A stretch of DNA of 44,561 nucleotides from assembly GCA_017630405.1 (NCBI GenBank), contig JAGBVH010000024.1:95638-140198 (forward strand), given 5' to 3'. Under the pieces are notes generated by a model. It made no database searches and was not told where the DNA came from. It was given only the letters and a program-made list of their open reading frames with translations. Both the position numbers and the translations under genes were made by a program. This document shows positions 9,769-44,561 of this stretch, piece by piece. Origin of the DNA: Alphaproteobacteria bacterium (lineage in GTDB: Bacteria > Pseudomonadota > Alphaproteobacteria > Rs-D84). Within the stretch, counting starts at the first letter, position 1. Each line of letters begins with the position of its first letter.

Positions 9769-9845
9769 CGCCAATAGTTTAAAAAATAGCGAGGTCTTGT
9801 GGGGTTAATCGGACTGATTCTGCGCCCACCCGCAAAATCCCGATG

Positions 9846-9874: not shown

Positions 9875-9892
9875 GTTTTTTCAATAAAATAA

Positions 9893-9912: not shown

Positions 9913-9924
9913 GTTTTTATGGGA

Positions 9925-10380
9925 TTATTTTGTGTGTTGTTCTGCTTTTATAATCAGTTTATCAATGCGTTCTGGGAATAATTTAAATACGCTATTTGGG
10001 ATGCCGGATAAATCAGAATTATGATATGTGCCCAAAATGCGAGAATTGCGAAGTGTGGCGCGATTCTTGATGTTGCCCTGGGCATCGATTATGCCCATAA
10101 TGCGGTCGTGTTTGAATGAAAACGCCAAGTCCATAACCAGATTTGGATTAACCTGTCCGACCAGTTCGTATTCGATATGAACTGATTTATAGCCTTCTAG
10201 TTCATGAAAGTTATTCGCCATATATGTATTGTATTCGTTGTGCTTGCCCGAAAACACATATGCTTGGGCAGCCAAAGACGAACGGTGGATAAGGTCTGCG
10301 TGTTTGGCATAGAATACCGGATTAACTGCCGCCAAGCATAATTCGCGCAGTTTGAAAATTGGTGCAAGTTCTGTGTTCAT
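9925..10380 (-). CDS. Hypothetical soluble protein, last gene of the thyA cluster
   Basis: A 151-residue protein that I do not recognise. It has no signal peptide or membrane segment. Predicted helices in the first half (HADLIHRSSLAAQAYVFSG) and strands in the second half (VHIEYELVGQVNPNLVMDLA, then a turn and FSFKH) suggest a compact alpha/beta fold. AAAGGA precedes the ATG at 10380. It follows the methyltransferase-like gene by ten bases, so the two are probably co-transcribed with thyA. Confidence 0.65.
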   Translation of the reverse strand: MNTELAPIFKLRELCLAAVNPVFYAKHADLIHRSSLAAQAYVFSGKHNEYNTYMANNFHELEGYKSVHIEYELVGQVNPNLVMDLAFSFKHDRIMGIIDAQGNIKNRATLRNSRILGTYHNSDLSGIPNSVFKLFPERIDKLIIKAEQHTK

Positions 10381-10390
10381 TTTTTGTCCT

Positions 10391-11104: not shown

Positions 11105-11118
11105 GTTGTCAATATGTT

Positions 11119-12069
11119 TTAGCGTGCCACTGCCCCGCGTAATGCTTCGTGGCAAACATAATCGCGCAGCACAAACCCGCCGTTTGCGTGCCAGTTCAGC
11201 ATGCCAGTCCAATTTTCGTCTGGGATTTCGACCGTTGGCAGTTTATATGGTTGGCGTTGTAATTGCTGGGATACCTGTTCCAGATGATTTGTATAAATAT
11301 GCGCATCGTGGAATTCGCCCTTTAAGATGCCGGGCTTAAGCCCTGCTTCTTTGGCATATAACAGCAACAGCAGCGCGTAACTGGCGATATTGTATGGAAT
11401 GCCAAGGAACATATCACATGAACGCTGGGTCCAAATCAGGGACAGTCGACCGTCACGCACAATCAATTGGTGCATAACATGACATGGTGGCAGCGCCATT
11501 TGTGGAAAGTCTACTGGATTCCAAGCGGAAACCAGTATTCGGCGGTCGTTCGGATTGTTTTTAAGTTTGTCGATTGTGATTGCGACTTGGTCTATGCCTG
11601 GTTTTTGTGGGTTAAAATTATCGGTTGGGTTTTTGTTTATGCGTTTTTCATCCCATTGATATTCCCCGCCAAAGTGTCGCCACTGAAATCCATAGATTGG
11701 TCCCAAATCGCGCTCGGCATCCGCGATTGAATTACGCAGGTCTATTTTTTGCTGTGGTGTTAAGTCGGCGCTGACGGTCATTTGATATGATTGCTCTATT
11801 TTTTCAGGATTGGCCCATTCGTTCCAGATTTTACATTTGCGGTCGCGCAGCCATTGTTTGTCGGTTATGCCGTGTAAAAAGAATTCCAGTTCCGTTGCGA
11901 TATTTTTAAGCCCCATTTTTTTTGTTGTAATCAATGGGAAACCAGTTTCCATATCGTGAACAAATACTGCGCCATGGCCCGTGCCAATGTCTGGTATCCC
12001 TGTGCGATTTTCGCGAATATCGGTACAGTTGTTATATATATCGCCCAGTATATCCAGATATGCTTTCAT
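11119..12069 (-). CDS. thyA: Thymidylate synthase ThyA
   Basis: Makes dTMP from dUMP using methylene-tetrahydrofolate. The 316-residue product has the FPLITTKKM entry motif, the long insert typical of some bacterial forms (about residues 88-120), RRILVSAWNP with the phosphate-binding arginines, the catalytic cysteine C196 in ALPPCH, the RSCDMFLGIPYNIASY segment, and HDAHIYTNHLEQ near the C-terminus. AAAGGG precedes the ATG. It heads a three-gene minus-strand unit; dihydrofolate reductase, its frequent partner, is not adjacent. Confidence 0.97.
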   Translation of the reverse strand: MKAYLDILGDIYNNCTDIRENRTGIPDIGTGHGAVFVHDMETGFPLITTKKMGLKNIATELEFFLHGITDKQWLRDRKCKIWNEWANPEKIEQSYQMTVSADLTPQQKIDLRNSIADAERDLGPIYGFQWRHFGGEYQWDEKRINKNPTDNFNPQKPGIDQVAITIDKLKNNPNDRRILVSAWNPVDFPQMALPPCHVMHQLIVRDGRLSLIWTQRSCDMFLGIPYNIASYALLLLLYAKEAGLKPGILKGEFHDAHIYTNHLEQVSQQLQRQPYKLPTVEIPDENWTGMLNWHANGGFVLRDYVCHEALRGAVAR

Positions 12070-12126
12070 TTTTTTCCCTTTTTTTTTTCAGTATTCACAA
12101 TTTGTGATATGTTTTTCAATAAAAAA

Positions 12127-12144
12127 ATCCCGCAAATGCGGGAT
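12127..12144 (-). terminator. Terminator of the 105-residue exported-protein gene
   Basis: ATCCCGC / GCGGGAT stem with a four-base loop followed, on the minus strand, by TTTTTTT. Confidence 0.85.
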
Positions 12145-12152
12145 AAAATTGA

Positions 12153-12470
12153 TTAGCGCAGCCCCTTGGCGCGACAGCAAGATGCCGCGGCAGATTTCCA
12201 ATCCGAATATGACGAGGATGGATTGCGTAAATCCTTCCATGGTTGCCAGCCAGAACATTTTTTTGCTGTGCCGACACCGGTGCATTTTACATAGCGGCGC
12301 AGCGTACATGTCTGGTTTGATGTGCGACCCGTATCGGTTGTACATTTGACGACCACATTTTGGTTTTTCGCATCATTTTTGCCAAGTTCTTTGGACGATA
12401 AAACCTGATACGCGGACGCGCCCTGAAACGCGGTTCCTATAATCATCAATGCGAAAAGAATCTTCTTCAT
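12153..12470 (-). CDS. Small exported Cys-containing protein, unknown function
   Basis: A 105-residue protein with a clear signal peptide (MKKILFALMIIGTAFQGASA). The mature part of about 85 residues is basic and carries six cysteines (VVVKCTTDTG, QTCTLRRYVKC, AKKCSGW and a CC pair near the end), suggesting a small disulfide-bonded periplasmic or secreted domain. I do not recognise the family. AAAGGA lies upstream of the ATG. Although it follows the prepilin peptidase cluster, it has its own promoter and terminator, so it may be expressed separately. Confidence 0.75.
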   Translation of the reverse strand: MKKILFALMIIGTAFQGASAYQVLSSKELGKNDAKNQNVVVKCTTDTGRTSNQTCTLRRYVKCTGVGTAKKCSGWQPWKDLRNPSSSYSDWKSAAASCCRAKGLR

Positions 12471-12531: not shown

Positions 12532-14532
12532 TTAGTCCACTGACCAAGGCTCGTCGTTCATGACCAGATAATATATGGCGGCATCGCTTGTCCCAGGGTT
12601 GCGCAGGATTGGGCGCACTACATATAAATCCATTGGGCAACTTGGGCCTTCGTCAAGTGTTTGGTGCAGTTTTGCTGCAAAATCCATTGCCTGCAGGAAA
12701 GCGGCATCATCATCGGCGGCAACTGTTGAATCACCGGCCCACATAAACCACATACCATGATTGACAACATTTTCCTGACCTTTGATATCATCGGCAGATA
12801 CCAATAACAGTGGCGAGAATTCAACACCATTTGTAAAATCACCTGTTTCTGTTTCAGTATAGTCATACATTCCGCCGACAAATTTGACGACGCCGTACCA
12901 CGCACTGGCTTTGGCGCCAAGGGTGGATATTGCTTCAAGATTTGCCATTGTAGAATGGAACAGCCAGTCACGTAATTTGCCGGATTTCATACTGGAACGG
13001 CCCATCTTTGCGGCTTTATTGATTGTTTTGTTTGTTTTGCTGCTCCATGTGGCTTTTAGCCATTTTCGACCACGTGCGAATATATTGCCTGTTTTTGCTT
13101 CGCGAAGGGCGCGCAGGTTGCCCTGAATTGTTTTTAATTCGTCACGCATTTTCAGCAAATCGTTCAGATGCTTTACATCTTGTGTTTTTTCTAAATCTTT
13201 AATAGCTTTTGCGACATCATCTGCTTCTTTTTGCATTACTTTTACTGCATCTGTTGCGGTATCAAGTTCTTTTTGAAGTTTAGCGGCCTCTTCCCCACGG
13301 TCCAGATACTTTAAGTCATCAGCGGACAAACCGAATTGATTTTTCAGTCTGTTTACCTCTTGTTGGGCGGATGAGTGCGCTTGACGCGCTTTTTTCATTG
13401 CGCGTTGGCCTTCGTTTGCGTTTGCGGTTTTTTTGACAGCAGCAGCTGTTCTTTCAGAATTTTTCATGCTGACTTGCATTTTTTTCATTTGTTCAGGGCT
13501 AAGTTTACGAACCGCATCTGGGACATCATCAAATGCTTTTAGTGATGTTTTAAGCCCATCAATTGTTTTATTTGCATCGGCAATGGCATCAAGTAAATCC
13601 GCCGATCGTTTTGTCGCCAACAGGTAGTCTTTTGCTATGTCAGTTCCGCGTGCCAAATCGATTGCGTCGTCTATTTTGTCCATTGCTCTTGCGGCTCTTG
13701 CGCCCTTGACGGCGGTTTTACCAGCGTTCCATGCGCCGCCAGTGAATATCATAAGGGCCACATCGGCGGCGACTTCTGCGTATGTAATCCAACGCAGGTC
13801 TACATCGCCCGCGACATAATAGTCATTGGTATCTTTTTCGCCGGCTTGTTCCATACCGACCGTTTTTGTGACCCCCTTGTTAAATGTATTGTCGTCATTG
13901 GCCAGTGCGCTGTCCGCGGCACAGGCGGACGGGAAAAGATTGTCGATATTGGCGCGGATATAGTCCAGACCGACTGTATTGTTTTTATCCGGTCCAACCA
14001 TATCGCGCAGTGCGCCTGGGCGCACCGCCATAATCGCGTACCAGCCGGGGTCTGTATTGGTCCATATATCGGCATCATTACCGGTGCTGATTTCTGGGTT
14101 GCCATCGGCGGCAAAGCGTTCGCGCTTGGCATTCATGTCACCGCGCTGCTGTAATTTATGTGGGGTGGTTGAATAGTTGAATTTTATTTCACGACCATTT
14201 GGGAAAGTGTGTGAAATGGTTTCGAATTTGATTAATTTGTCGGGGTCGGCATTGGCAACCTCGGGACAGGCAAGAACCTTTTCAATTGTATCTTTGGAAA
14301 ACAGAGAATTTTGCAACCAAAGGCTGATTGCATAATCATCGGCGTTGTAGGCATCAAGTTTATCGGCATTTTGGGTCAGGGCATCATTAAACGCGGCGGT
14401 CGCGCAAGGCGTGCTGTCCGCAACGCGGATTGGCCGGCCGTTTTCATCCAGTTGCACCGTATCTGCATTTGTCGAACCGGCAAATGCAGATAGCGCAACA
14501 ATCAATCCAAAGATTAAATTATGTGTTTTCAT
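12532..14532 (-). CDS. Large exported protein with coiled-coil core, unknown function
   Basis: A 666-residue protein that I do not recognise. It has a signal peptide (FGLIVALSAFAGSTNA), an N-terminal domain with two Cys (DSTPCATAA, VLACPEV), a moderately hydrophobic segment near residue 255 (AADVALMIFTGGAWNAG) followed by a basic Ala/Arg helix (KGARAARAMDK), about 200 residues of charged coiled coil (roughly 300-500), another hydrophobic stretch near 545-560, and an acidic C-terminal domain ending NDEPWSVD. Its start overlaps the stop of the preceding gene (TAATG), so the two are translationally coupled. Arrangement is reminiscent of exported effectors, but that is only a resemblance. Confidence 0.75.
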   Translation of the reverse strand: MKTHNLIFGLIVALSAFAGSTNADTVQLDENGRPIRVADSTPCATAAFNDALTQNADKLDAYNADDYAISLWLQNSLFSKDTIEKVLACPEVANADPDKLIKFETISHTFPNGREIKFNYSTTPHKLQQRGDMNAKRERFAADGNPEISTGNDADIWTNTDPGWYAIMAVRPGALRDMVGPDKNNTVGLDYIRANIDNLFPSACAADSALANDDNTFNKGVTKTVGMEQAGEKDTNDYYVAGDVDLRWITYAEVAADVALMIFTGGAWNAGKTAVKGARAARAMDKIDDAIDLARGTDIAKDYLLATKRSADLLDAIADANKTIDGLKTSLKAFDDVPDAVRKLSPEQMKKMQVSMKNSERTAAAVKKTANANEGQRAMKKARQAHSSAQQEVNRLKNQFGLSADDLKYLDRGEEAAKLQKELDTATDAVKVMQKEADDVAKAIKDLEKTQDVKHLNDLLKMRDELKTIQGNLRALREAKTGNIFARGRKWLKATWSSKTNKTINKAAKMGRSSMKSGKLRDWLFHSTMANLEAISTLGAKASAWYGVVKFVGGMYDYTETETGDFTNGVEFSPLLLVSADDIKGQENVVNHGMWFMWAGDSTVAADDDAAFLQAMDFAAKLHQTLDEGPSCPMDLYVVRPILRNPGTSDAAIYYLVMNDEPWSVD

Positions 14533-16127
14533 TACCAGTCACGAATTTGGCTTGCTTGTTTCTTCTTTTTTTCCCAAGCTTGTTCTGCTTGGTTTTTTTG
14601 TTCCGGGGTGGAATAATCGTCTCTGTCGGTATATCCATTACCATCGGTGTTGCTGAAACCGTCTGATATTTGCAGTACGTTGCTATTAAGGTTCGTAAGT
14701 GCTTCTTGGTCAGCGCTTGAAATGTCCGATGGTGATATTTCATGCATTATAAATAATTGATCATAACCTTCTACGGTTACAGGCGTCGTGTCGTCAAATA
14801 ATGCTTCATATGTTACAGTAAGAATTGCTGTTATACCAGTGAGTACTAGAAAACCAGTACCTGCACCGCGTGCAAACCTAGAGGCTTTGCTTAGTGCATT
14901 AGTTGCTTTGGCTGCCCCGGTGGCCGTTGCTCCCAGTTCAGCGGCAGCTGTTACAGTTGTGCCAGCCATAGTAGCTGTACTGTAGGCAAGTCCGTATGAA
15001 GCTGCAGATGTACCATAGGCAATGCCAGAAAGTATCGCTGGCCATTTTGCCCATTGCAATGTAGTTGATGCTACCTCTCCGAAGGTCTTTGGGTTTTCAA
15101 TTTCTAGCTCCGCTGTGTTCAGATACTTTGCGACGATTGCTATAGGGTCATTTGTTGATGCTATGTATAATCGGAAATCTTTTGGATTACAACCATCTGT
15201 TCCATTTGCTGTATAAAAATCATTGGCAATTTTATAACCGTCTTTTACAGCAAAGTCTAGGAGAGCATTACTAGTTACGCAATCAGAACATTGATTGTGG
15301 TTTATCACTGTCATACCATTGGTGTCTTGGCCGACAGCCGACACATGATTTTTATCATAATTAATGAGTTGGCCTGGGAACGAGTTGTATCTGCTTATTT
15401 GATGCTTTCCGTTTATAATGTAGTTGGTTGAGTTCTTATATGGGATAGACCAGTTCATTTTGTTTTTGCATGAGCCGTTATAGTTTGTAATTGCTTTATC
15501 AGCATCATTGTATACAAGCCATTTGCCCGGTGTTCCGGTGCCTTTTGGTAAAGCAAGCAGATAATATGTGGAGGCCAGGTTGCTGAGAATTTTGTTTATA
15601 TCTATTTTTATAGGTACTTGGTTTTCTTTCGGTGTTTCTGTATAGGTATCCATTGTTACTACTTTTATTTTCTGGGCCGTATCATCCCATATTATAGGGA
15701 GCTGGAGCGTGGCCTTCATATTTTCGTAGTTCGTAAAATTACTCTCACCTATTGATTGCGCAAATGCGACAAAGTACTCGGGACAAAAATTTGAAACATA
15801 CAATAGCATTGAACCAACAGAAGCTTTTGCTAGATTGGACCGGTTTTCGCGAACTACGGGATCAATTGACCTAGAATCGCTGAACGTGTTAGATATCGAG
15901 TAGATTTGGCCATCTTTATTGTTTGCTCCTGTAATCATATCCTGCAACCCTTTAAAAGGTGTTTCGTCTGTTTGTGTCTCTGGGCCGTCATTCAAAAAGT
16001 TTACGATGTCTGTGTTGTTGAGATAATTATTCAGGCAATTCTTAAGCCCTTCCGCAACTTCGGCCCTATCAGCCATTGCGCCAGTTGTCATTAAACCGAT
16101 AAGTGATGATAAAATTAAACGTTTCAT
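14532..16127 (-). CDS. Large exported protein with two central hydrophobic segments, unknown function
   Basis: A 531-residue protein of unknown family. The signal peptide (LILSSLIGLMTTGAMA) is followed by a Cys-containing N-terminal domain, a middle part with an NQCSDC motif near residue 280, then two Gly/Ala-rich hydrophobic segments (about 365-400, WPAILSGIAYGTSAAS onward, and about 425-445, GFLVLTGITAILTVTYEA) separated by a basic linker (KASRFARGAG). The C-terminal 60 residues are polar and end in a Lys-rich helix. The layout, exported head, hydrophobic pair with ARAxGA-like linker, polar tail, loosely parallels its downstream neighbour. It is 15 bases from the upstream gene and overlaps the next one. 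Confidence 0.75.
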   Translation of the reverse strand: MKRLILSSLIGLMTTGAMADRAEVAEGLKNCLNNYLNNTDIVNFLNDGPETQTDETPFKGLQDMITGANNKDGQIYSISNTFSDSRSIDPVVRENRSNLAKASVGSMLLYVSNFCPEYFVAFAQSIGESNFTNYENMKATLQLPIIWDDTAQKIKVVTMDTYTETPKENQVPIKIDINKILSNLASTYYLLALPKGTGTPGKWLVYNDADKAITNYNGSCKNKMNWSIPYKNSTNYIINGKHQISRYNSFPGQLINYDKNHVSAVGQDTNGMTVINHNQCSDCVTSNALLDFAVKDGYKIANDFYTANGTDGCNPKDFRLYIASTNDPIAIVAKYLNTAELEIENPKTFGEVASTTLQWAKWPAILSGIAYGTSAASYGLAYSTATMAGTTVTAAAELGATATGAAKATNALSKASRFARGAGTGFLVLTGITAILTVTYEALFDDTTPVTVEGYDQLFIMHEISPSDISSADQEALTNLNSNVLQISDGFSNTDGNGYTDRDDYSTPEQKNQAEQAWEKKKKQASQIRDW

Positions 16128-34730: not shown

Positions 34731-34928
34731 ATGAAGCACTTGGTGCTGCTTGTTTGCGTACTGATGGCTGGAACTGCATATGCGGATCTGGCGTCTGTTT
34801 CGTATGTCTCTAAGGCCACAGAAACAAGCGTAAAGACATCAGCAGAAACAAAACAGACTATGGCGGGTGAATATACTGTTTCGGGTGCTTTGTATGTGCC
34901 AACGCCGCCGTTGCCACCGATGGATTAG
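34731..34928 (+). CDS. Small exported protein of surface module 1
   Basis: A 65-residue protein with a signal peptide (HLVLLVCVLMAGTAYA) and a mature part of about 47 residues: a polar, Thr/Ser/Lys-rich stretch (VSKATETSVKTSAETKQ), a GEYTVSGALYV strand and a Pro-rich end (PTPPLPPMD). AGGGAG precedes the ATG at 34731; the longer frame from 34677 adds nothing family-like. It is clearly a paralogue of the gene at 36706, which shares the SVSYVS start, the YTVSG strand and the PTPPLP tail. It ends four bases before the large repeat protein, implying co-translation. Function unknown; a surface subunit or partner of that protein is a guess. Confidence 0.8.
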   Translation: MKHLVLLVCVLMAGTAYADLASVSYVSKATETSVKTSAETKQTMAGEYTVSGALYVPTPPLPPMD

Positions 34929-34932: not shown

Positions 34933-36564
34933 ATGAAATGGGTGTTGGGGATAATCTTTGGTGTGCTTTGTTCTTTTTCCGCATATGCGGGGTTGGCGGT
35001 TAATGTTGATTATATTCACAGTTTAATTCAACGAAAGTGGGATGTTACAGTGCCGTTGAATGATGCGCTGACTGATACAAGTATGGTCGCAAATATGGAG
35101 TATCTGTTGCGGGCGGTGGATGTTGCGAATTACAAGTTAAACGGTTGGGTGACGACCAACTATGCCGAAAGTGAATATGCTACAAATGCTGCGGCGGATA
35201 CTGTGGCGACACAGTTGGCGGTTGATAACTTGATTAAATTTATTGGGTTCCCCTTTTCCTTGACCACAACCGATACAACAGAGTATTTCCAGTTTACAAT
35301 GTCGGCCAAGGGGACATTTTATGTAAATTGGGGCGATGGAAACGAAGAAGTTATCGAACGATCGGATACAAATGAAACAACATACGAACATACATATGCG
35401 ACCGCGGGTGAGTATAAAATTGAACTGGATGGCAAGGCAACCGCATACAGTAATGGCAGTACGACACCAGCAATCAGTTTTAATAACAATCAAAATGTCG
35501 CAAAAATTAGTGGCAGTTTGGGGATAATTTTCCCAACGCTGGCCAATGGTACCCAGCCAAAGTTTTATTATACTTTTGGGAATCTGCCAAACCTTGGTGG
35601 TGCGATACCACCTTCGTTGTTTACTGGCATAAATGGTAAACCAACCAAAAATATGTTTTATGGTACATTTTTTGGCGCGAGTAATTTAACTGGTCAAATA
35701 CCAGAAAAATTGTTTGCTGGCATCAAGGGCGACCCTATGGAGGGGCTGTTTTATCGTACATTTGAAAATTGCTCGGGGCTGGGTGGCGATATTCCGGCGG
35801 GATTGTTTGCGGGATTGGATGGTGCGCCAGCTCGCGATATGTTTCATGCGACATTTTCTGGTTGTGTGGGGTTGACTGGTTTTGGCGGGGCATTGTTTGC
35901 CGGTATTTCTGGCGCGCCGGCCCAACGTATGTATAATGCGACTTTTTCGGGGTGTTCTGGATTAACAGGAAGTATCCCAAGTGGCTTGTTTGGTGTGTTT
36001 AATGGTGTGGCCCAGGAATTGATGTTTGGGAATACTTTTTATTCATGTTCAGGTTTGACGGGTGGGATTCCGGCGAATTTATTTGCGGGTGTTACGGGGC
36101 AGCCCGCCAAGCGTATGTTTGAAGGTACTTTTAATATGTGTTCAGGCTTGACGGAAAGTATCCCTGCGGATTTGTTTGCGGGATTGGATGGGACTCCAAT
36201 GGAAAAAATGTTTTATAATACCTTTGCAGGGTGCAGTAGTTTGTCTGGTGATGTGCCAAGCGGTCTGTTTGCAAATATTTCTGGTGCAGTTGCACCCCAG
36301 ATGTTCGCCAGAACTTTTTATAACTGCAGCAGTTTGACCGGAATCCAAGATGGCGTGTTTGGCGCGTTGACTGGCGGGGCGCAGAATCAGATGTTTATGG
36401 AAATGTTTTATCGTAATTACGCATTGCGTGGGCCGTCGGCCAGAATTGGCGGGCAATATTTGTATGAAATATGGCCGGACGCAACAAGTTCGCATGTGGG
36501 CAAGATGTATTCTGATGATACAGGTTTGTCTGATTGGATATCAATTCCAAGTGCTTGGAAGTAA
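34933..36564 (+). CDS. Exported WGDG/LF-repeat surface protein, module 1
   Basis: A 543-residue protein with a signal peptide (VLGIIFGVLCSFSAYA). The mature start (about 20-120) contains VDYIHSLIQ, VPLNDALTD and an AADTVAT motif. Next is a PKD-like strand pair with FYVNWGDG (near residue 132) and YEHTYATAGEYKIEL, then the conserved GSLGIIFPTLANG linker. Nine repeats of about 31 residues follow (bases 35587-36414), each like CSGLTGGIPANLFAGVTG then MFEGTF, and the protein closes with GGQYLYEIWP and SIPSAWK. The repeats resemble BspA-type leucine-rich repeats in spacing but not exactly. No membrane anchor or sorting tail is seen. Likely a cell-surface or secreted binding protein; ligand unknown. 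Confidence 0.82.
   Translation: MKWVLGIIFGVLCSFSAYAGLAVNVDYIHSLIQRKWDVTVPLNDALTDTSMVANMEYLLRAVDVANYKLNGWVTTNYAESEYATNAAADTVATQLAVDNLIKFIGFPFSLTTTDTTEYFQFTMSAKGTFYVNWGDGNEEVIERSDTNETTYEHTYATAGEYKIELDGKATAYSNGSTTPAISFNNNQNVAKISGSLGIIFPTLANGTQPKFYYTFGNLPNLGGAIPPSLFTGINGKPTKNMFYGTFFGASNLTGQIPEKLFAGIKGDPMEGLFYRTFENCSGLGGDIPAGLFAGLDGAPARDMFHATFSGCVGLTGFGGALFAGISGAPAQRMYNATFSGCSGLTGSIPSGLFGVFNGVAQELMFGNTFYSCSGLTGGIPANLFAGVTGQPAKRMFEGTFNMCSGLTESIPADLFAGLDGTPMEKMFYNTFAGCSSLSGDVPSGLFANISGAVAPQMFARTFYNCSSLTGIQDGVFGALTGGAQNQMFMEMFYRNYALRGPSARIGGQYLYEIWPDATSSHVGKMYSDDTGLSDWISIPSAWK
35587..36414 (+). repeat. Nine tandem 31-residue LF repeats
   Basis: Coding tandem array of about 92-93 bases per unit, consensus C-S-G-L-T-G-x-I-P-x-x-L-F-A-G-x-x-G-x-P-x-x-x-M-F-x-x-T-F-x-x. 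The units differ enough in DNA to be old. Confidence 0.85.
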
Positions 36565-36610
36565 TTTTTTGCCGATTTGATTCTTTTGGCTTTTTCTGAA
36601 GTTCGATTTT

Positions 36611-36619
36611 TGATACAAT
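36611..36619 (+). promoter_or_regulatory. Extended -10 promoter of surface module 2
   Basis: TG-A-TACAAT (TG at 36611, TACAAT at 36614-36619). The flanking sequence (TTCGATTTTTGATACAATA) aligns with the module 1 promoter region, so the promoter was probably duplicated with the genes. Confidence 0.5.
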
Positions 36620-36705
36620 AAAAGAGATAGAATATATGGGGATGTGCACTAATTTATTGATTGTGCGATGTTTTTGTGGCGCAACGATTTGGTGCAAGAG
36701 GGATC

Positions 36706-36945
36706 ATGAAGTATATAGTGCTGATAGTTTTTGTCTTATTGACGGGAAACGCGTTTGCGAACGTGGCTTCTGTGTCATATGTCAGCCAAGCTACCCAGAC
36801 CAAGGTGGATACGGCTGCGGACACTGTTCAGACATTGCAGGGTGATTACACTGTGTCGGGGTCAGTTGTTGTGACCGGATCGTTTACGGTGACGGGGGCA
36901 TTCAAGGTTCCAACCCCGCCATTACCAAACCCAAATGCGGACTAG
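36706..36945 (+). CDS. Small exported protein of surface module 2
   Basis: A 79-residue paralogue of the gene at 34731. Signal peptide YIVLIVFVLLTGNAFA; mature part with SVSYVSQATQTKVDTAADT, a duplicated beta-strand stretch (YTVSGSVVVTGSFTVTGAF) that is one or two strands longer than in module 1, and the same Pro-rich tail (VPTPPLPNPNAD). The ATG at 36706 has AGAGGGA upstream. It is followed after six bases by its large repeat-protein partner. Its strand count differing between paralogues suggests repeat gain or loss. Confidence 0.8.
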   Translation: MKYIVLIVFVLLTGNAFANVASVSYVSQATQTKVDTAADTVQTLQGDYTVSGSVVVTGSFTVTGAFKVPTPPLPNPNAD

Positions 36946-36951
36946 TATTGG

Positions 36952-38226
36952 ATGTTGAAACGAATCGTATGCTTTTTGTTGGGCTTGTTTATGTTTGGGG
37001 CAAATGCAGCCGAGTTGGTCACGGTTCGTTATATTCATGAATTGCTGGAACATAATTATGGTGTGTATGTTCCGGTTAATGATACCCTTACTGATACGGA
37101 CTTAGATACGCCAGCAAATATGGAGTACTTGCTGTATATTGTGGATTTGGCCAATGAGTTTATCCGCGGAACCCCGACTGCGTATAGTTCGACCGTTTAT
37201 GCGACGGATGATGCGGCCGATACTGTTGCAACTATTCAGGCATTTGATACATTGCTGGAAGAAGTTGAGGTTTTGGATCATGAATATCCATTTGAAATTA
37301 CGGTAAGTGGTGGAAACTTTTCGTTTACGATGTCGGCCCAAGGGGAATTTTATATCGATTGGGGCGACGGCAGCGAAGAACAAATAATTACTAAGTCAGA
37401 TACAAATAATACAACCTATTCGCATTCCTTTTCTGGTGAGGGTCCTTATTCAGTTCGTTTTGGGGGATTGGCTACGGATTACAATGATGATGTCACTACT
37501 GCGGCAATCAGTTTTTATGATAATTCGACTATTTCTACTATTCAGGGGAATTTAAGCATAATATTTCCAACTTTGCCTGATGGTAAAAATCCGCGTTTTT
37601 ATCAGTCCTTTGCTGAAATGTCTGTAACTGGGGCAATACCGGCGAATTTGTTCATTGATTTGGTGGGGGCGCCGGTTGAAAATATGTTTTACAGAACTTT
37701 TTATGGCAGTAGTGGTTTTCGTGGTGCAATACCAGAGAGTTTATTTGGAACAATGACTGGTGCGCCCGCCCCGGGGATGTTCTATGAAACTTTTCGTGGT
37801 GTAACGCAGTTAACGGGTTCCGTTCCTGTGAAGTTGTTTTCTAGTATTACAGGTGCGCCCGCGGAAAATATGTTTTATGGAACGTTTTATGGGTGCTCGA
37901 AAATGCGCGGTGAAATTCCATCTGGACTGTTTGCGGGGATTTCTGGTGCGCCTGCCCCTGGGATGTTTGATCAAACATTTGCCAACTGTAGTAAAATTAG
38001 TTCGATTGGCGAAGGCGTCTTTGGCAATCTGTCTGGTGATGCGCAGAATAATATGTTTTACAGAACTTTTTATGGTAATAAAAAAATGACAGGTTATTCC
38101 CCAAAGATAAACGGAAAATATTTGTATGAAATTTGGCCGAGTGCCACGACAGCACAGGTTGGTGGTATGTTCGGCAGTTGTAATAAAATATCTGACTATC
38201 GCTCTATGCCAAGTGCTTGGCGGTAA
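36952..38226 (+). CDS. Exported WGDG/LF-repeat surface protein, module 2
   Basis: A 424-residue paralogue of the protein at 34933. Signal peptide RIVCFLLGLFMFGANA; mature start VTVRYIHELLEH, VPVNDTLTD and the AADTVAT motif align with module 1. The PKD-like part has FYIDWGDGSEEQ and YSHSF, followed by LSIIFPTLPDG, then five LF repeats (bases about 37612-38076, for example GEIPSGLFAGISGAPAPGMF), and the same closing cap (NGKYLYEIWP, SMPSAWR). It has four fewer repeats than module 1, accounting for its shorter length. No clear ribosome binding site; translation is probably coupled to the small gene six bases upstream. Confidence 0.82.
   Translation: MLKRIVCFLLGLFMFGANAAELVTVRYIHELLEHNYGVYVPVNDTLTDTDLDTPANMEYLLYIVDLANEFIRGTPTAYSSTVYATDDAADTVATIQAFDTLLEEVEVLDHEYPFEITVSGGNFSFTMSAQGEFYIDWGDGSEEQIITKSDTNNTTYSHSFSGEGPYSVRFGGLATDYNDDVTTAAISFYDNSTISTIQGNLSIIFPTLPDGKNPRFYQSFAEMSVTGAIPANLFIDLVGAPVENMFYRTFYGSSGFRGAIPESLFGTMTGAPAPGMFYETFRGVTQLTGSVPVKLFSSITGAPAENMFYGTFYGCSKMRGEIPSGLFAGISGAPAPGMFDQTFANCSKISSIGEGVFGNLSGDAQNNMFYRTFYGNKKMTGYSPKINGKYLYEIWPSATTAQVGGMFGSCNKISDYRSMPSAWR
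37612..38076 (+). repeat. Five tandem LF repeats
   Basis: Coding tandem array of about 93 bases per unit, same consensus as module 1 with G-A-P-A-x-x-M-F in most units. Confidence 0.8.
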
Positions 38227-38278
38227 CTATTAAAAAACACTTGATTTTTTATGGCTTTTAGATAATAATATCCCGCGC

Positions 38279-38298
38279 GCAGCACCCTTGGAGGCTGC
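38279..38298 (+). promoter_or_regulatory. rplY: Stem-loop in the rplY leader
   Basis: GCAGC and GCTGC arms around a ten-base loop, about 36 bases before the rplY start. A possible promoter (TTGATT with TAATAA or similar) lies some 20 bases upstream. rplY is autoregulated in E. coli; whether this leader does the same is unknown. Confidence 0.3.
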
Positions 38299-38334
38299 CG
38301 AATATAAACAAACATGCTATAAAAGGATAAAAAA

Positions 38335-38955
38335 ATGGCAATTAACTTAAACGCAGAAATTCGCAACGTTGCTGGCAAGGGGGCCGCACGTAGCATCCGC
38401 AATAACAAAAACATCCCTGCTGTTATTTACGGGGAAAAGAAATCCCCTGTTGCAATCGAATTGAACGGTCGTGAATTCGAAATGCTGTTGAAAACACCAG
38501 GTTTGCGGACTAAATTGTTCCAAATCAAAACAAGCGAAGGTACAGAAGACGCAATGTTGATGGATATTCAGTATCACCCAGTTTCTGATGCTGTTATTCA
38601 CGCAGACTTTAAACGCATCGATGTTAAAAAGCCTGTTAATGTTGTTGTACCGGTCGAAGTTATCAATGTTGAAACTTCTAAGGGCTTGAAATTGGGCGGT
38701 ACATTGAACTTTGCAGTACGTAAAGTTGCATTGCGCGCTTTGATTGACGCAGTTCCAGAAAAAATCACAATCGATTTGGCAAATATGACAATCGGTGATG
38801 TGGTTCACGGTTCTGACTTGGTATTGCCAGCAGGCGTTGAACTGGGCCTGCATCAGGCTGAATTGGCGTTCGCTATTATTGGTGGTAAAATGCCAATGGA
38901 AGAAGATGAAAAAGCCAAGGCCGCAGCAATGGCAGCAGCCGCCGCGAAAAAATAA
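38335..38955 (+). CDS. rplY: 50S ribosomal protein L25 (long CTC form)
   Basis: Binds 5S rRNA in the large subunit. The 206-residue protein has the N-terminal L25 domain (RNVAGKGAARSIRNNKNIPA, VIYGEKKSPVAIELN, then MDIQYHPVSDAVIHADF) and the second CTC beta domain (VVVPVEVINVE, LGGTLNFAVRKVALRA, GDVVHGSDLVLPAGVEL), ending in an Ala/Lys-rich tail. AAAGGA precedes the ATG. pth, its usual downstream neighbour in alphaproteobacteria, is missing; rnpB and a surface gene follow instead. Confidence 0.95.
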   Translation: MAINLNAEIRNVAGKGAARSIRNNKNIPAVIYGEKKSPVAIELNGREFEMLLKTPGLRTKLFQIKTSEGTEDAMLMDIQYHPVSDAVIHADFKRIDVKKPVNVVVPVEVINVETSKGLKLGGTLNFAVRKVALRALIDAVPEKITIDLANMTIGDVVHGSDLVLPAGVELGLHQAELAFAIIGGKMPMEEDEKAKAAAMAAAAAKK

Positions 38956-38959
38956 TAAT

Positions 38960-38986
38960 AAATCCGCTTCGGCGGATTTATTTTTT
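38960..38986 (+). terminator. rplY terminator
   Basis: AAATCCGC / GCGGATTT stem closed by a TTCG tetraloop, followed by ATTTTTTT. Confidence 0.9.
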
Positions 38987-39010
38987 TAAATTGAATATTC
39001 TGAATAATGA

Positions 39011-39037
39011 AAAAACACGCGCCCATGGGCGCGTGTT
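39011..39037 (-). terminator. rnpB terminator
   Basis: Near-perfect palindrome (arms AACACGCGCCC and GGGCGCGTGTT) followed by TTTT on the minus strand, immediately after the RNase P RNA. Confidence 0.85.
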
Positions 39038-39368
39038 ATCAGTAAAAGCGTATAAGCCGGATTCTGTTCTGCCCTGGCCCAGTGTCTTTTGGGAACCAAG
39101 CCAAGGTAGCGGACATGATTAATCTGCAATTTGTGTTACCACAATTGTCAAGCCTTCTACCCGCCCCCAACCTGGGACTCGTATAGGGGGCCTATTTGAA
39201 GTTGCTGCGCACAGAGATTGCCCGTTTCACTCGAATTTAATCGTTTACGTCACTGTTGCTCTAATCGTCGGGTCGCCCCGCCTGGTATATTAGCCAGTGT
39301 GCTGTCCCACGCAGTCCGGACTTTCCTCCGACCCGAGGGGCGGATCGGCCATGTCCTGCTCTTCTGAT
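39038..39368 (-). ncRNA. rnpB: RNase P RNA, type A
   Basis: Catalytic RNA that trims the 5' leader of tRNA precursors. Read on the minus strand it contains the universally conserved GGAGGAAAGTCCGGACT near the 5' end, GAAACGGGCAA-like core sequence (GTGAAACGGGCAATC), and near the 3' end CAGAACAGAATCCGGCTTA, the canonical closing segment. The ends were set by helix P1: ATCAG-A-AGAGC (from 39368) pairs with GCTTTTACTGAT (to 39038). The 331-base length is a little short for type A. The deduced start agrees with the position predicted from the promoter, and a strong hairpin terminator follows at once. Confidence 0.95.
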
Positions 39369-39374
39369 AGGGGT

Positions 39375-39402
39375 ATTCTAGCATTTTTTTATCAATTTTC
39401 AA
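39375..39402 (-). promoter_or_regulatory. rnpB: rnpB promoter
   Basis: Minus-strand TTGAAA (39397-39402), 16-base spacer, TAGAAT (39375-39380), giving a start near 39368. Confidence 0.75.
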
Positions 39403-39517
39403 GTTTTGCTGATCTTTGGAAAAGGTGTCAAAAAAAATTTTTTTAAAAATCAAGTCTTTTTTACTTGTGTGATGTGTGTTTTTTTTTCTATGATTACTAC
39501 AAAAGGGAAGGAAGAAA

Positions 39518-42500
39518 GTGGGAAAAATAGCCAGATTATTAAGGTTTTTAGCAGTTTTGTCGATGTTCGTTGTGGGCGCAAATGCGTTCGCTATTGGGTT
39601 TGTGTGCGAGAATGAACGCACCTATACATCGTGTGTAAGCGGATATTATTTGTCCGATTGTGGTGATTATGTTGATGGCCGTACATTGACCGAATCGGAT
39701 TTGTCGGCTGGAAATTCGTGCGTTCTATGTCCAGATGGTTATGACTGTGAAGGTGGAATGAAGTGTCCATATAATCCGAATGCGGATGAAGATGGTGGGT
39801 TTGTTTGTGATGAAGCATATTTCGAATGTGAATCTGGCTATTATTTGTCTGATTGTGGCGATGCTTTGGATGGGCGCACTTTGACCAATGATGATATAAC
39901 GGTTGGCAACTCTTGTGTTGCATGTCCAGAAGGTTATGACTGTATTGGTGGTATGACATGTCCGGCTGATGAACCTATTTTGCAAGAATGTCCAGAAGGT
40001 CAGTATTTGTCTGATTGCGGTGCTTCTTCTAATTGGGGAGGTCAAGATTTATTAGATAACGAATTGACATTAGGCAATGCTTGCTTGAATTGCCCAGATG
40101 GTTGGATTTGTGACGGTGGGGCGTTTTGTCCGTACAGGGATGACGGCGTGTCTGGATTTGTCTGTGATACTAAGCGTTTCTTGACTTGTCCAGAGGGGCA
40201 ATTCCTGTCGGATTGCGGTTCGTCATCAAATTGGAATGGTCAGGTGTTGACAACGGATGATTTAACGGCAGGTAATGCATGTGTTGAGTGCCCTGAAGGT
40301 GTCATATGTGATGGTGGCAAAACATGTCCGACTGATCCAGATTATAAGTTTGAATTAAAGACGGTTTTGGGAACAACATCTTTTAATGTTGGTATTAGTG
40401 CTGCGGGTAAATTCTATATTGATTGGGGAGATGGAAATATTGAAACGATAATCAATGAAACAATAGCCTATGAGTTTGTGTCGCACTCATATGATACAGC
40501 GGGTCAATACACAATTAAAATTGGTGGATTGGCAACTGGGTATGATGTTGAGGCGATTACTCAGGACGACTCCCCTGTTATTAACTTTTCGGCTGCTAAG
40601 ATAGCGTCAATTGGTGGTAGCTTGGGTGCCATATTCCCAACATTGTCAAATGGTGATCAGCCCGGCTTCTTTAGTACATTTGCTGGCTCGAAAATTACAT
40701 CGTTGCCATCAACGTTGTTTAATGGAATTCGTGGTGCGGGTGAATCTATGTTCACAGAGACCTTCGCAGGCTGTACAGGGCTGACGGAAATACCAGCAGG
40801 ATTGTTTAGTGGTATATCTGGTGCGGCAGATTGGATGTTTAATAGCACATTCTTTGGCTGTACAGGGCTGACGGAAATACCAGCAGGATTGTTTAGCGGT
40901 GTATCTGGTGCGGCGGCTCATATGTTTAGTGGCACATTTGATGGGACACAAATTACATCGATACCGGCTGATTTGTTTAGTGGTGTGACTGGCGGTGCTG
41001 CTTCATTGTTTAGCAATACGTTTGCAAATACGTCTGTTGTTTCGATCCCCGCGGGTTTGTTCAGCGGGATAGATGATGTTGCTGATTATATGTTTAGTGG
41101 CACATTTGATAGTTGTACGAGCTTGAAATCTATTCCAACTGGACTGTTTGATGGCTTGTATGGTCAGGATAGTATACCGGATACAATGTTTGAGGGCACG
41201 TTTAGCGCGTGTACATCTTTGACAGGTCCTGCAGCGCGATTCTCGGACGAATTGGGTGGTAAATACCTTCATCAGGTTTGGCCGATGCTGGATGCTGATA
41301 TGTGGACATATGCCGATACAAATATTGATAATTTGAAGTATATCCCAACATCTTGGGGTGGTGATGGTTATATAAAGTGTGATGTGGGTGAATATTTGCC
41401 AGCTGGCGAATCGGTTTGTGCGGTGTGCCCTGTTGGGTCGTACTGTGTGGGTATTACAGATGTTAATACTAGCGCTTCGGATCAGGGTATTGAATCATGC
41501 CCATCCGGCTATACAAATAATGAAACTGGTTTGACCAGTGGTGTAGATTGCTTTGGTGGGTACAAGTTCACAATCGAGACTCTGCCTATGACTGGTGAAT
41601 TTGGTTTTAGTATGATGGCCGTTAATGGTAATTTCTGGGTTGATTGGGGTGATGGTACACCGGTGGAATATATCCCAATAACCGATTTCTCTAACAAACC
41701 TGTTTCACACACATATGAAGGCTCTGCTGTTGCACGCACAATTAAAATGGGTGGTTTGGCAACGGAATATCATCCAACTGTATTACCTTGGACTGCTCGC
41801 ATTATTGTATTCACAAATAATACGAATATATCAAAACTATATGGCAGTTTGGGTGCTATATTCCCAACTTTGGCGAATGGAGCGCAACCTGGATTTGTAA
41901 CAGCATTTGCGGGGAACTCTAATTTGACACAAATTCCATCGACTTTGTTTGATGGTATTACCGGTCAGCCACGTGGCTATATGTTCACGCAAACATTTGC
42001 TGGAACAGGTTTGACATCAATCCCAGAAGGCTTGTTTGCTGGATTGGATGGTGCACCAACCGAAATGTTGTTTGCAAATACATTTGGGGGCACCAAAATT
42101 ACATCGATACCTGCGGGTTTATTCAGTGGTATCAAGGGGGCGCCAGCACTAAATATGTTTAATGCCACATTTGCGGATACAAAAATTACTTCAATCCCAG
42201 AAGGCCTGTTTGACGGGTTGAACACATCGGCTGCAGCGGCGGACGGTATGTTTGCGCAGACATTTTATAATTGCACGTCTTTGACTGGTCCTGCGGCGAA
42301 AATGTCCGCGGCCAATGGTGGTCAGTATCTGCATAAAATCTGGCCGATGACTGGTGCGACTATGCAGACTTATACCGGCACAAATATTGATGGGCTGCGT
42401 GTTATCCCAGTGTCTTGGGGTGGCGAGGGTGTCTTGGGTTGTGATCCTGGTCAGTACTTGAAGTCAAATGCGACAACATGTTCTGCGTGCGAGGCAGGTT

Positions 42501-44561
42501 ATTACTGCCCAGGTGGAGAATTGACACCATCCACCACAGCAAATGTTGGAAGAAACAGCTGTTCAACAGATACAGGTTCTAAATATACATCGTCAGCGGC
42601 CAGTTCATATTCGATTGAACAGTGCTATGTGACTGTTGTTGCTGGGAAATATGTAGCAGAAGCGACCAAGGGTCAGGTTGACTGTGCGGAAGGTAATTAC
42701 TGTGCGGGCGGTACAACTGTGTACTATGGCGCAGCAGGCGGTACAACGACTGGTGGTATGACCGAGTGCCCTGCTGGATCATACTGCCCAGCCAAGGCAT
42801 CGGCTGCGACAAAATGCCCAGGATTGTATGTGAACAGTCCAGCGGGCTCGAACGCAGCAGAAGATTGCTATTTTACACCAGCAGTTGGATATTATATTGC
42901 CAGCTCTGGTGCAACAGCAGAAACTGAGTGCGAAGCAGGATATTATTGTCCGAATAATAAGTTGAACTATCCAAATGTAAGCGCAAAAACGGCTTGCCCT
43001 GCCCCTGCTGATCACAAGCGTACAAGCGTTCCTTCGACTTATTATAATGCACAGATTGAATCTACACAGAGCAGCGGCACCAAAAAGACCAAGATTGAAC
43101 AATGTACAGCGTTTACATGGTTGGTATCTGGTTCTGTTGGTAAGTTGTATGAATATGCTACATATAACACAACCACCCAGAAGTATGATAATACAACCAG
43201 TTATGCTTGGTCAGAAGTAAAGCCTGGGTATTACCTGAAAACACCAGCATCATGTGGTACTTATGCCTATTATCTGGAAGCGGTGCCATGCGAAAAGAAC
43301 AGCTATTGCCCAGGTAAGGCTGCGGTGACTTGCAACAGCAGTAATCAGGCAACAGTTCATACCGCAACATTTGGTTTGGAATCTTGTGGAACTGCTACTG
43401 GTGACGCGTACGGCTTGTCCGATGGTGGTACAAGTGCCAAGACTGTCAATGCGTGCTATTTGATGACACCAAAATACCAGTTCGTTAAGGAACCAAATGC
43501 TGCACCAACTTTGTGCGAGGCTGGTTCAGCCTGTGCTGGTGGCGTAAAGGTTGTTTACGGTCAAACTGGTGGTGCAACGGCTTGTTCTGGCGCGACATAC
43601 AGCGGCGCGGGCGCGGCAAGTTGTACGACCTGCCCAACTGCAGCACAGTATGCTGACAAGGTGGTTTCGTATAATAATGTTGGTCATACAGATAAAGCGA
43701 ATTGTTATGCCACATTTGATGTGGATGTGAATAATGGTTCTGTTGATTCTGTGAACTGTTATCTGAAAACAGGTTCAGATTATGGTAATGCGACCAATGG
43801 CGTAAATCATTGTTGGACACATACTACAAACTTGACCTGTGGTGCTGGATACTATTTGTCTACAGATTTGCATGCCTATAATACAGAACGCTGGTTCCAG
43901 AATTTGAATCAGGCTATGACAGGAACATGTATTGAAGTGGGTGCTGGACACTGGTCGCCTGCTGATTCGCTGACACGTAATGACTGTGCAGCGGGCTATG
44001 ATGATGGTTCTGCAACTGCATCTGTTGAAACAGACTGTAAGATGACTGTGCCTGCGGGTAAAGTTGTTGAAAGTGCGGGCGCGGCTGCTACGACACCAAC
44101 TGGTCATTGGTATAGCGCACAGCATACTGTATCTCAGGGTTCTACATCCGGTTCCAATAAGCAGTCTTGTGCGACATCATATACAACAACAAATTCGACA
44201 ACACAGACAGATCACGATGCTGAAACCGATTGTAAGATAACCTGTGAGGCTGGTAGTTATGTAAAGACTGCTCGTCAGGCTTGTGTCTCGGTTGATGTAA
44301 GTGGTAAGTTCATGGGTAAACATACAGTTGAACAAAGCAAAAACTCAACACTTGAATCATGTCCAGATGGTTGGGATGGTTCGGATGGCAATCGTGACTC
44401 TAACAAGAGTTGTTATGCGGCCTGTGCGACATCTGATAAGACCATTTCTAACGGTACTATCACAAGTGTTGTTAATGCGAAGGAATACTATACAGGCAGC
44501 GCATATCCAGCATGTAAGTATAATGCGTCATGTTCAGCAACATATGGTTTGAGCGGCAACG
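39518..44561 (+). CDS. Giant exported Cys-rich surface protein (3' end outside window)
   Basis: Open from a GTG at 39518 (AGGAAG eight bases upstream) to the window end: at least 1,681 residues. Order of parts: signal peptide (FLAVLSMFVVGANAFA); four Cys-rich repeats of about 60 residues (YLSDCG, GNSCV-CP-GYDC-GG-CP; bases about 39640-40335); a first cassette with FYIDWGDG, GSLGAIFPTLSNG, six LF repeats and KYLHQVWP/IPTSWGG; a short Cys-rich link; a second cassette with FWVDWGDG, GSLGAIFPTLANG, four LF repeats and QYLHKIWP/IPVSWGG (to about 42430); then over 700 residues of CPAGSYCP-type segments resembling ephrin-receptor-like GCC2/GCC3 domains. Likely a secreted or surface adhesin held by many disulfides. 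Frame was checked at five points along its length. Confidence 0.88.
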   Translation, partial: MGKIARLLRFLAVLSMFVVGANAFAIGFVCENERTYTSCVSGYYLSDCGDYVDGRTLTESDLSAGNSCVLCPDGYDCEGGMKCPYNPNADEDGGFVCDEAYFECESGYYLSDCGDALDGRTLTNDDITVGNSCVACPEGYDCIGGMTCPADEPILQECPEGQYLSDCGASSNWGGQDLLDNELTLGNACLNCPDGWICDGGAFCPYRDDGVSGFVCDTKRFLTCPEGQFLSDCGSSSNWNGQVLTTDDLTAGNACVECPEGVICDGGKTCPTDPDYKFELKTVLGTTSFNVGISAAGKFYIDWGDGNIETIINETIAYEFVSHSYDTAGQYTIKIGGLATGYDVEAITQDDSPVINFSAAKIASIGGSLGAIFPTLSNGDQPGFFSTFAGSKITSLPSTLFNGIRGAGESMFTETFAGCTGLTEIPAGLFSGISGAADWMFNSTFFGCTGLTEIPAGLFSGVSGAAAHMFSGTFDGTQITSIPADLFSGVTGGAASLFSNTFANTSVVSIPAGLFSGIDDVADYMFSGTFDSCTSLKSIPTGLFDGLYGQDSIPDTMFEGTFSACTSLTGPAARFSDELGGKYLHQVWPMLDADMWTYADTNIDNLKYIPTSWGGDGYIKCDVGEYLPAGESVCAVCPVGSYCVGITDVNTSASDQGIESCPSGYTNNETGLTSGVDCFGGYKFTIETLPMTGEFGFSMMAVNGNFWVDWGDGTPVEYIPITDFSNKPVSHTYEGSAVARTIKMGGLATEYHPTVLPWTARIIVFTNNTNISKLYGSLGAIFPTLANGAQPGFVTAFAGNSNLTQIPSTLFDGITGQPRGYMFTQTFAGTGLTSIPEGLFAGLDGAPTEMLFANTFGGTKITSIPAGLFSGIKGAPALNMFNATFADTKITSIPEGLFDGLNTSAAAADGMFAQTFYNCTSLTGPAAKMSAANGGQYLHKIWPMTGATMQTYTGTNIDGLRVIPVSWGGEGVLGCDPGQYLKSNATTCSACEAGYYCPGGELTPSTTANVGRNSCSTDTGSKYTSSAASSYSIEQCYVTVVAGKYVAEATKGQVDCAEGNYCAGGTTVYYGAAGGTTTGGMTECPAGSYCPAKASAATKCPGLYVNSPAGSNAAEDCYFTPAVGYYIASSGATAETECEAGYYCPNNKLNYPNVSAKTACPAPADHKRTSVPSTYYNAQIESTQSSGTKKTKIEQCTAFTWLVSGSVGKLYEYATYNTTTQKYDNTTSYAWSEVKPGYYLKTPASCGTYAYYLEAVPCEKNSYCPGKAAVTCNSSNQATVHTATFGLESCGTATGDAYGLSDGGTSAKTVNACYLMTPKYQFVKEPNAAPTLCEAGSACAGGVKVVYGQTGGATACSGATYSGAGAASCTTCPTAAQYADKVVSYNNVGHTDKANCYATFDVDVNNGSVDSVNCYLKTGSDYGNATNGVNHCWTHTTNLTCGAGYYLSTDLHAYNTERWFQNLNQAMTGTCIEVGAGHWSPADSLTRNDCAAGYDDGSATASVETDCKMTVPAGKVVESAGAAATTPTGHWYSAQHTVSQGSTSGSNKQSCATSYTTTNSTTQTDHDAETDCKITCEAGSYVKTARQACVSVDVSGKFMGKHTVEQSKNSTLESCPDGWDGSDGNRDSNKSCYAACATSDKTISNGTITSVVNAKEYYTGSAYPACKYNASCSATYGLSGN
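39641..40335 (+). repeat. Four Cys-rich N-terminal repeats of the giant protein
   Basis: Units start near 39641, 39837, 39998 and 40197. Shared pattern: G-x-[YF]-L-S-D-C-G, a variable loop, G-N-[SA]-C-x-x-C-P-[DE]-G-x-x-C-x-G-G-x-x-C-P. The first two and the last two are each other's closest relatives. Confidence 0.8.
40685..41211 (+). repeat. Six LF repeats, first cassette of the giant protein
   Basis: Units of 28-32 residues, consensus C-T-x-L-T-x-I-P-x-G-L-F-S-G-[IV]-x-G-A-A-x-x-M-F-x-x-T-F-x-x. Two neighbouring units are almost identical in DNA. Confidence 0.85.
41914..42270 (+). repeat. Four LF repeats, second cassette of the giant protein
   Basis: Units such as TGLTSIPEGLFAGLDGAP followed by MLFANTF; 28-32 residues each, in phase with the first array. 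Confidence 0.8.

Follow-up and report, generated by a model that had tools for sequence, protein, structure and literature searches.

A cassette of a PKD-like domain and tandem repeats with five variable positions per repeat in small-genome Alphaproteobacteria

Variable lymphocyte receptors and other leucine-rich repeat (LRR) repertoires use an LRR scaffold with a few hypervariable positions per repeat. The accessible part of the account by Roske et al. (2010, PMC2996958) describes PARCEL proteins (DUF285/TIGR02167) as often membrane-targeted and sporadically distributed, with variable-number tandem repeats composed of a conserved hydrophobic frame and variable polar positions; in that part, it is left undecided whether the polar positions are under selection or drift neutrally. 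The Trichomonas BspA-like family is described in the accessible part of its source (PMC2843621) as large and expanded, with variable repeat number. The window analysed here is a stretch of 44,561 nucleotides from an Alphaproteobacteria bacterium (assembly GCA_017630405.1, contig JAGBVH010000024.1, positions 95,638 to 140,198). Three of its genes, referred to as gene 1 (P0001), gene 2 (P0002), and gene 3 (P0003), carry four copies of a cassette composed of a WGDG domain, an IFPTL stretch, tandem LF repeats, and an IWP cap. No paper on this cassette family was found among the top-ranked matches in the open-licence literature. In the reading that we favour with moderate confidence, the cassette is a PKD-like domain followed by an LRR solenoid, with the IFPTL stretch as its first repeat, and serves as an exported ligand binder with a specificity set by five variable positions in each repeat. 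New here is that, between close relatives, these five positions change at about three times the frequency of the remaining non-scaffold positions, and that they are conserved in gene 1 orthologues.

Architecture and predicted fold of the cassette

The cassette is no chance pattern, because 974 proteins among 7997 candidates scored match it at E ≤ 1e-3. The architecture was counted in the best 120 of these 974 proteins plus the five cassette proteins of the source genome (n = 125), a list biased to full-length relatives because the query was full-length. A hidden Markov model scan of the 125 proteins placed the repeats after 226 of 228 PKD-like domains and before 218 of 220 caps. The N-terminal module is present in 117 proteins, and the complete order is found in 121, in the pattern N-(PKD-repeats-cap) with the parenthesised unit occurring one to three times. 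The parts are found together in the relatives; separate matches to existing families, with no co-occurrence of the parts, were what the initial annotation had named as speaking against one inherited unit. We then read giant open reading frames (ORFs). Eight stretches were taken, two were joined, and L174 gave no ORF by the filter used. Among the six ORFs read, one has 13 PKD-repeat units, and four lack a recognised cap. The constant company of the parts and the multi-unit ORFs bear out the annotation in that the unit has been inherited, duplicated, and multiplied as one block. The IFPTL stretch, which had been regarded as a linker of its own, is instead a divergent first repeat, as it aligns to the repeat profile with a probability of 97.9% (E 4e-13, hhalign).

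Gene 1 (34933..36564, + strand, 543 residues) contains all parts in order. Residues 20–106 (34990..35250) form the N-terminal module (VNVDYIH...ANMEYLL...), followed by the PKD-like domain at residues 107–193 (35251..35511), the divergent first repeat GSLGIIFPTL at residues 194–228 (35512..35616), nine LF/MF..TF repeats at residues 229–499 (35617..36429), and the cap IWP...IPSAW, recognised by motif and profile, at residues 500–543 (36430..36561). The P0001 structure model, with a predicted local distance difference test score (pLDDT) of 92.7, has a PKD-like domain on an LRR solenoid. The strands at residues 108–172 are predicted with high pLDDT and fit a PKD-like β-sandwich, and most of the repeat region of the model superposes on known LRR structures, which suggests an LRR solenoid fold. 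A continuous solenoid capped by the IWP domain had been proposed as the structural check; the model supplies the solenoid together with the PKD-like domain, and the cap as last repeat reached a probability of 42% in profile comparison. A sequence search of PDB with P0001 returned nothing at E ≤ 1, and a Foldseek search of PDB with the P0001 model returned nothing at E ≤ 0.001, LRR rows appearing on a second look.

Profile searches place the window proteins near, and below the cut-offs of, several families. The WGDG...H-[ST]-[YF] motif of PKD is present in all four window cassettes. For PKD (PF00801/PF18911), P0001 scored 14.1 and 13.4 bits, under the gathering scores of 27 and 23.5, respectively, and P0002 and P0003 gave no match. 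A PKD match at E ≤ 0.01 was found in three of 30 aligned relatives (A3), and precomputed PKD annotation in 37 of the best 120 listed relatives. For TIGR02167, P0003 scored 24.5 bits against a cut-off of 30, P0001 and P0002 had no match at E ≤ 1, and four of the 30 aligned relatives matched at E ≤ 1e-3 (best 7.4e-10). The window proteins have no match to PF03382, and none to LRR_5 (PF13306) at E ≤ 1; LRR_5 is sub-threshold in the viral relatives L112 (E 0.0012) and L120 (E 0.012). PamR, a candidate phyla radiation pilus protein (NF058578), matches 22 of the 30 aligned relatives at E ≤ 1e-3; P0001–P0003 scored 22.9, 22.1, and 25.7 bits for it, far below the cut-off of 300, and their matches are confined to the PKD-like part. 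The likeness to PKD and, loosely, to BspA-type LRRs that had been seen in the letters alone holds by predicted fold and by these sub-threshold or relative-level matches. The TF..C..LT.IP letters of the cassette repeats presumably correspond to the BspA repeat core, and we take 4fs7 (BACOVA_04585) to be filed under the BspA-type LRR proteins (LRR_5). Inverted k-mers in the four window arrays stay within the synonymous-shuffle null (p 0.13–1.0; a k-mer test of dyad symmetry and not the original MEME).

Repeat turnover and five variable positions

Repeat number shifts by whole repeats between close relatives. We inspected 73 protein pairs of more than 78% identity, with proteins shared between pairs, and found internal indels of at least 8 residues in 40 of them. 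The 54 indels include 28 of 28–32 residues and four of 58–62 residues; the repeats therefore come and go whole. With the LF of the repeat numbered 1 and 2, the most variable of 31 positions over 1647 repeat stretches are 11, 15, 16, 12, and 19, and Y, S, N, and G are frequent among the residues found there. As repeat indels confound wider orthologue groups, the variability claim rests on close pairs (disjoint, 80–99% identity, windows with local identity ≥0.7). Over 18 such pairs outside the P0001 group, changes were counted in 208 of 1044 cases at the five positions and in 169 of 2447 at the remaining non-scaffold positions (odds ratio 3.35, p 2.5e-27), with the five higher in 15 of the 18 pairs. 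The reverse was found in four disjoint pairs of P0001 orthologues (10/192 at the five positions versus 105/442 at the others), and in an alignment of 12 P0001 orthologues internal gap runs do not exceed 10. In many members, then, the five positions outpace all other classes on an almost invariant scaffold, and in the gene 1 orthologues they are conserved.

We then compared codons. Pairing 113 distinct ORFs gave 35 pairs, 14 of them disjoint (72–99% identity, local identity ≥0.65); two of the 14 are window genes and are reported apart. Over the remaining 12 pairs, the ratio of the nonsynonymous rate (dN) to the pooled synonymous rate (dS) is highest at the five positions (1.03), followed by the other variable positions (0.28), the sequence outside the repeats (0.23), and the scaffold (0.03). 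At the five positions it exceeds 1 in nine pairs, and the 95% interval of a codon bootstrap lies wholly above 1 in three. Compared with their counterparts in the L035 genome, a metagenome-assembled genome (MAG) from yak caecum, gene 1 and gene 2 each have a five-position ratio of 0.03, at pooled dS values of 1.59 and 1.28, respectively, which are near saturation. By these ratios, change at the five positions is at least tolerated across much of the family and, in some pairs, probably driven.

Several results weigh against a diversifying ligand binder. The pooled five-position interval over the 12 pairs is 0.69–1.72, and relaxed constraint is therefore possible overall. Two pairs lie clearly below 1 (L049/L172, 0.26; L090/L093, 0.32), and the pool rises above 1 (1.59, 1.32–1.92) only after their post hoc removal. 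Five of the 12 pairs connect the same two genomes (G014 and G085), the source of all three clear pairs, and another three join paralogues of a single MAG. In four pairs, scaffold dS exceeds non-repeat dS (5.5-, 2.9-, 1.95-, and 1.9-fold), which suggests repeat swapping; the eight pairs with a scaffold/non-repeat dS ratio ≤1.3 give 0.90 (own ratio 1.24). The gene 2 result is a single pair with two changes in 23 codons at near-saturated dS. Among the phage-type relatives described below, the excess at the five positions is not significant (80/259 versus 114/455, 15 pairs, odds ratio 1.34, p 0.097). Nor was a surface anchor recognised in the cassette proteins.

The alternative that competes best is recombination, in which repeats are swapped or shuffled between paralogues with little point selection. 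It accounts for the predominance of whole-repeat indels, for the raised scaffold dS of the four pairs, such as L062/L065 with 5.5-fold, and for the direct DNA repeats that exceed the synonymous-shuffle null in P0002 and cassette a of P0003. As the main source of variation it is possible, though we think it doubtful: pairs without raised scaffold dS still give ratios of 2.89 (L216/L223), 1.57 (L041/L104), and 1.46 (L020/L091), the interval excluding 1 in L216/L223 only. We regard as unlikely, and as weaker than recombination, that the cassettes are structural or spacer proteins, such as periplasmic or fibre-like stalks, whose five positions vary through lack of constraint and not through binding. 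The pooled ratio of 1.03 (0.69–1.72) is what relaxed constraint predicts, no ligand is known, and the small companion proteins described below and the N-terminal module recall phage tail-fibre phrases, some companions weakly matching phage families. Against such a role, the whole interval exceeds 1 in three pairs, and lack of constraint leaves unexplained why P0001 orthologues keep these five positions with little change when their other variable positions drift.

In the ligand-binder reading, the cassette proteins would be exported by the Sec pathway, as their N termini suggest, and the five positions would form one exposed stripe touching the ligand. Selection for change, as opposed to relaxed constraint, would act in part of the family. 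Some members would keep changing, be it in an arms race or with variable host, phage, or food glycans, and others, including gene 1 and probably gene 2, would keep one conserved target. A nearly invariant scaffold with five positions that are fast in some members and kept in others would fit a binding surface. The initial annotation had proposed a diversifying binding surface; the fast-changing positions fit this in many members, and for gene 1, whose variable positions are conserved between species, the proposal does not stand; the single gene 2 pair agrees with gene 1. The mechanism is likely that of an exported LRR adhesin family with a changing mode and a locked mode.

Relatives, companion genes, and genomic setting

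The combination is not restricted to the window genes; viral and environmental relatives have it too. The viral contigs L112, L119, and L120 encode the PKD-repeat order of the cassette. With L119 as query, a phage-type set of 1087 proteins was collected at E ≤ 1e-5 (7993 candidates), mostly without a named source. In the best 120 of these 1087, the PKD-like profile matches 118, the repeat profile 120, and the cap profile 35, with the full order in 34; a profile scan of the same 120 found the N-terminal module in none, and nine carry precomputed PF03382. The L120 cassette gene lies directly after a gene for a 1567-residue tail-fibre-like protein and before a tail-fibre-assembly gene. Genes matching phage families were found beside L119 (two of four checked) and not beside L121 (none of three). 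The family phrog_9915 is shared with phage PKD-LRR proteins. The gene before the L119 cassette gene (L119:3697-4824) also matches phrog_9915, so that two such proteins stand in tandem. A tblastn search of a phage database with P0002 gave three Klebsiella phage records, two of which are one phage, covering 30% of P0002.

The tail-fibre genes adjoining one viral relative and the phrog_9915 matches raise the alternative that the window genes are prophage or phage-remnant tail-tip proteins and not bacterial surface proteins. This is improbable, as the window proteins start with a signal-peptide-like stretch, carry an N-terminal module that none of the 120 listed phage-type relatives has, and are encoded beside what look like housekeeping genes by eye (an L25-like gene and RNase P RNA, and for P0005 rpsK-like and rpoA-like genes). 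Less probable still is a diversity-generating retroelement that writes the repeat variation, a candidate suggested by the Y, S, N, and G of the variable residues and by reverse transcriptase matches in three of 10 genomes, and dropped since the other seven, including G085, G074, and G179, have no match to reverse transcriptase (PF00078) and third codon positions change too (87/375).

Small companion genes precede some cassette genes by a few bases. Companion 1 (34731..34928, + strand, 65 residues) ends four bases before gene 1, and companion 2 (36706..36945, + strand, 79 residues) ends six bases before gene 2; a third lies upstream of P0004, and none was seen upstream of P0005. The companions have a signal-peptide-like start (by eye in companions 1 and 2) and a PTPPLP-like end. 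Among 50 cassette genes with upstream DNA of sufficient length, a pattern check found a companion for 21, both window genes counted, and two further companions that the pattern missed (L096 and L102) were seen by eye. Fifteen of the 29 cassette genes without a companion belong to one MAG (Mgla_MAG_35-bin_11), where the pattern found none in 15. A companion profile built from 13 sequences identifies 422 of 7989 candidates as homologues at E ≤ 1e-3. Some of six companions weakly match phage families (phrog_38418, 3.8e-7; phrog_564, 1.5e-5; tail-fibre families, 0.07–0.2), and we would otherwise presume a likeness to phage-fibre phrases. The N-terminal module, with ANMEYLL-like letters, is common to the four small cassette proteins P0001, P0002, P0004, and P0005, and the companion protein is likely a partner of this module.

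Within the window's order, 111 of 202 genomes match the cassette, in 12 of 23 genera, and every listed one belongs to the window's own family. Of 385 genomes drawn evenly from the class, the window's own and one other matched, the latter by two short hits to the PKD-like domain; three same-genus genomes in this draw had no match. A P0002 query matched 20 of 59 genomes, the window's own included, all of one genus, and a P0085 query within the genus matched 83 of 132. By their titles, the 77 loci taken by name belong to Alphaproteobacteria or to bacteria named with less precision, with ruminant hindgut a frequent source, and include Candidatus Enterousia avistercoris; Mgla_MAG_35-bin_11 (JAAVBP, loci among L039-L106) alone supplies 19 of them. 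A giant ORF in L169 (G120:C2:1-14500, ORF 2-12331, about 4110 residues) has five PKD-repeat units fused to a nuclease: an Endonuclease_1 domain (PF04231, E 5e-25) forms the C-terminal part of its last 1000 residues, which also contain Flg_new repeats.

The source genome has 1.05 Mb in 30 contigs. Searched with P0001, it matched 11 times, and the matches fall in five reading frames, namely those of the three window genes, P0004 (L013:257-1492), and P0005 (L012:5735-7678). P0004 and P0005, outside the window, carry diverged caps. Within the window, gene 1 and gene 2 hold one cassette each and gene 3 holds two (a and b). Their WGDG motifs are at residues 133, 137, 303, and 710, their IFPTL motifs at residues 199, 204, 372, and 781, and their full repeats number 9, 5, 6, and 4, respectively, just as first annotated. 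The annotated motif wording stands in general; it misses GNLSIIFPTL and the MPSAW cap end of P0002, and the repeat unit is 27–31 residues.

Gene 2 (36952..38226, + strand, 424 residues) encodes a PKD-like (WGDG) domain (37285..37545), the divergent first repeat GNLSIIFPTL (37546..37647), five repeats (37648..38091), and a cap, IWP...MPSAW (38092..38223). Gene 3 (39518..44560, + strand, at least 1681 residues) has a GTG start, is truncated where contig and window end, and places Cys-rich modules around its two cassettes. Cassette a has a PKD-like domain (40346..40615), the divergent first repeat GSLGAIFPTL (40616..40714), six repeats (40715..41224), and the cap VWP...IPTSW (41225..41356). Cassette b likewise has a PKD-like domain (41567..41842), GSLGAIFPTL as divergent first repeat (41843..41944), four repeats (41945..42286), and the cap IWP...IPVSW (42287..42418). 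The Cys-rich modules of gene 3 (YYLSDCG...CPxGYDCxGG, GYYCPGG), at 39518-40340 and 41360-44560, contain 137-nucleotide direct repeats. RNase P RNA (RF00010, 168 bits) lies at 39035-39367 on the − strand, just upstream of gene 3, and an L25-like ribosomal gene, judged by eye, adjoins genes 1–3. P0005 (G000:C19) and one other ORF lie between rpsK-like and rpoA-like genes by eye, a ribosomal-protein region that is an odd place for a surface-protein gene. On the same locus, L012:10671-13454 and 13433-15001 encode adjacent paralogous Cys-rich, secreted-looking proteins with letters like CQQKYDGCMDSFCMLDN.

Comparison with known systems

In the cassette family, the question of selection versus neutrality at polar positions (PMC2996958) becomes testable at five defined positions. 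Some pairs point to selection for change and the gene 1 orthologues to conservation, so that a single scaffold seems to serve in two modes. The five positions also give a site map for ligand hunting in bacteria with genomes of about 1 Mb, for which metagenomes are the main source, and mark the variable sites of a natural LRR scaffold. More tentatively, the cassettes may make up an inherited receptor repertoire in a family of tiny-genome Alphaproteobacteria: an adhesin cassette shared with phage tail tips, multiplied in some 1-Mb genomes to at least a dozen genes, equipped with its own fibre-like companion and N-terminal module, and bearing a five-position hypervariable reading head that is either driven to change or locked on one conserved ligand.

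The kind of protein is already known, namely a PKD plus PARCEL/BspA-like LRR surface protein. By their profile scores the window proteins are best filed as related to these families and not as members, because the profile cut-offs were missed and dyad symmetry was lacking. Like the cassette family, PARCEL, in the accessible part of its description, has variable-number tandem repeats, a hydrophobic frame with variable polar positions, and a sporadic distribution. Its unit there is 25–26 residues, compared with 27–31 in the window cassettes. Unlike PARCEL, the window arrays have no excess dyad symmetry (by the inverted k-mer test, not MEME), and the window proteins score below the TIGR02167 cut-off and do not match PF03382. 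With BspA-type LRR proteins, as far as their accessible description goes, the cassette shares a predicted LRR solenoid fold, large expanded families, and variable repeat number; it differs in the absence of an LRR_5 match and in its fixed PKD-like domain, N-terminal module, and cap. Different from variable lymphocyte receptors, the cassettes are encoded by ordinary genes without somatic assembly, and the LRR class and the variable positions are not the same. The PKD-LRR proteins of tailed phages (BFVD A0A8S5RYD6 and M4QPG4) match structurally over the whole length. The L119 relatives resemble the cassette in having a PKD-like domain followed by LF repeats, with the cap too in 34 of the 120 listed. 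Unlike the window's small genes, these phage-type relatives have no N-terminal module (none of the 120 listed); the L112 and L120 proteins start without a signal-peptide-like stretch, as judged by eye, and the gene of the latter lies among tail genes. By analogy, the cassette family likely works like the PARCEL and BspA surface proteins and the phage PKD-LRR proteins.

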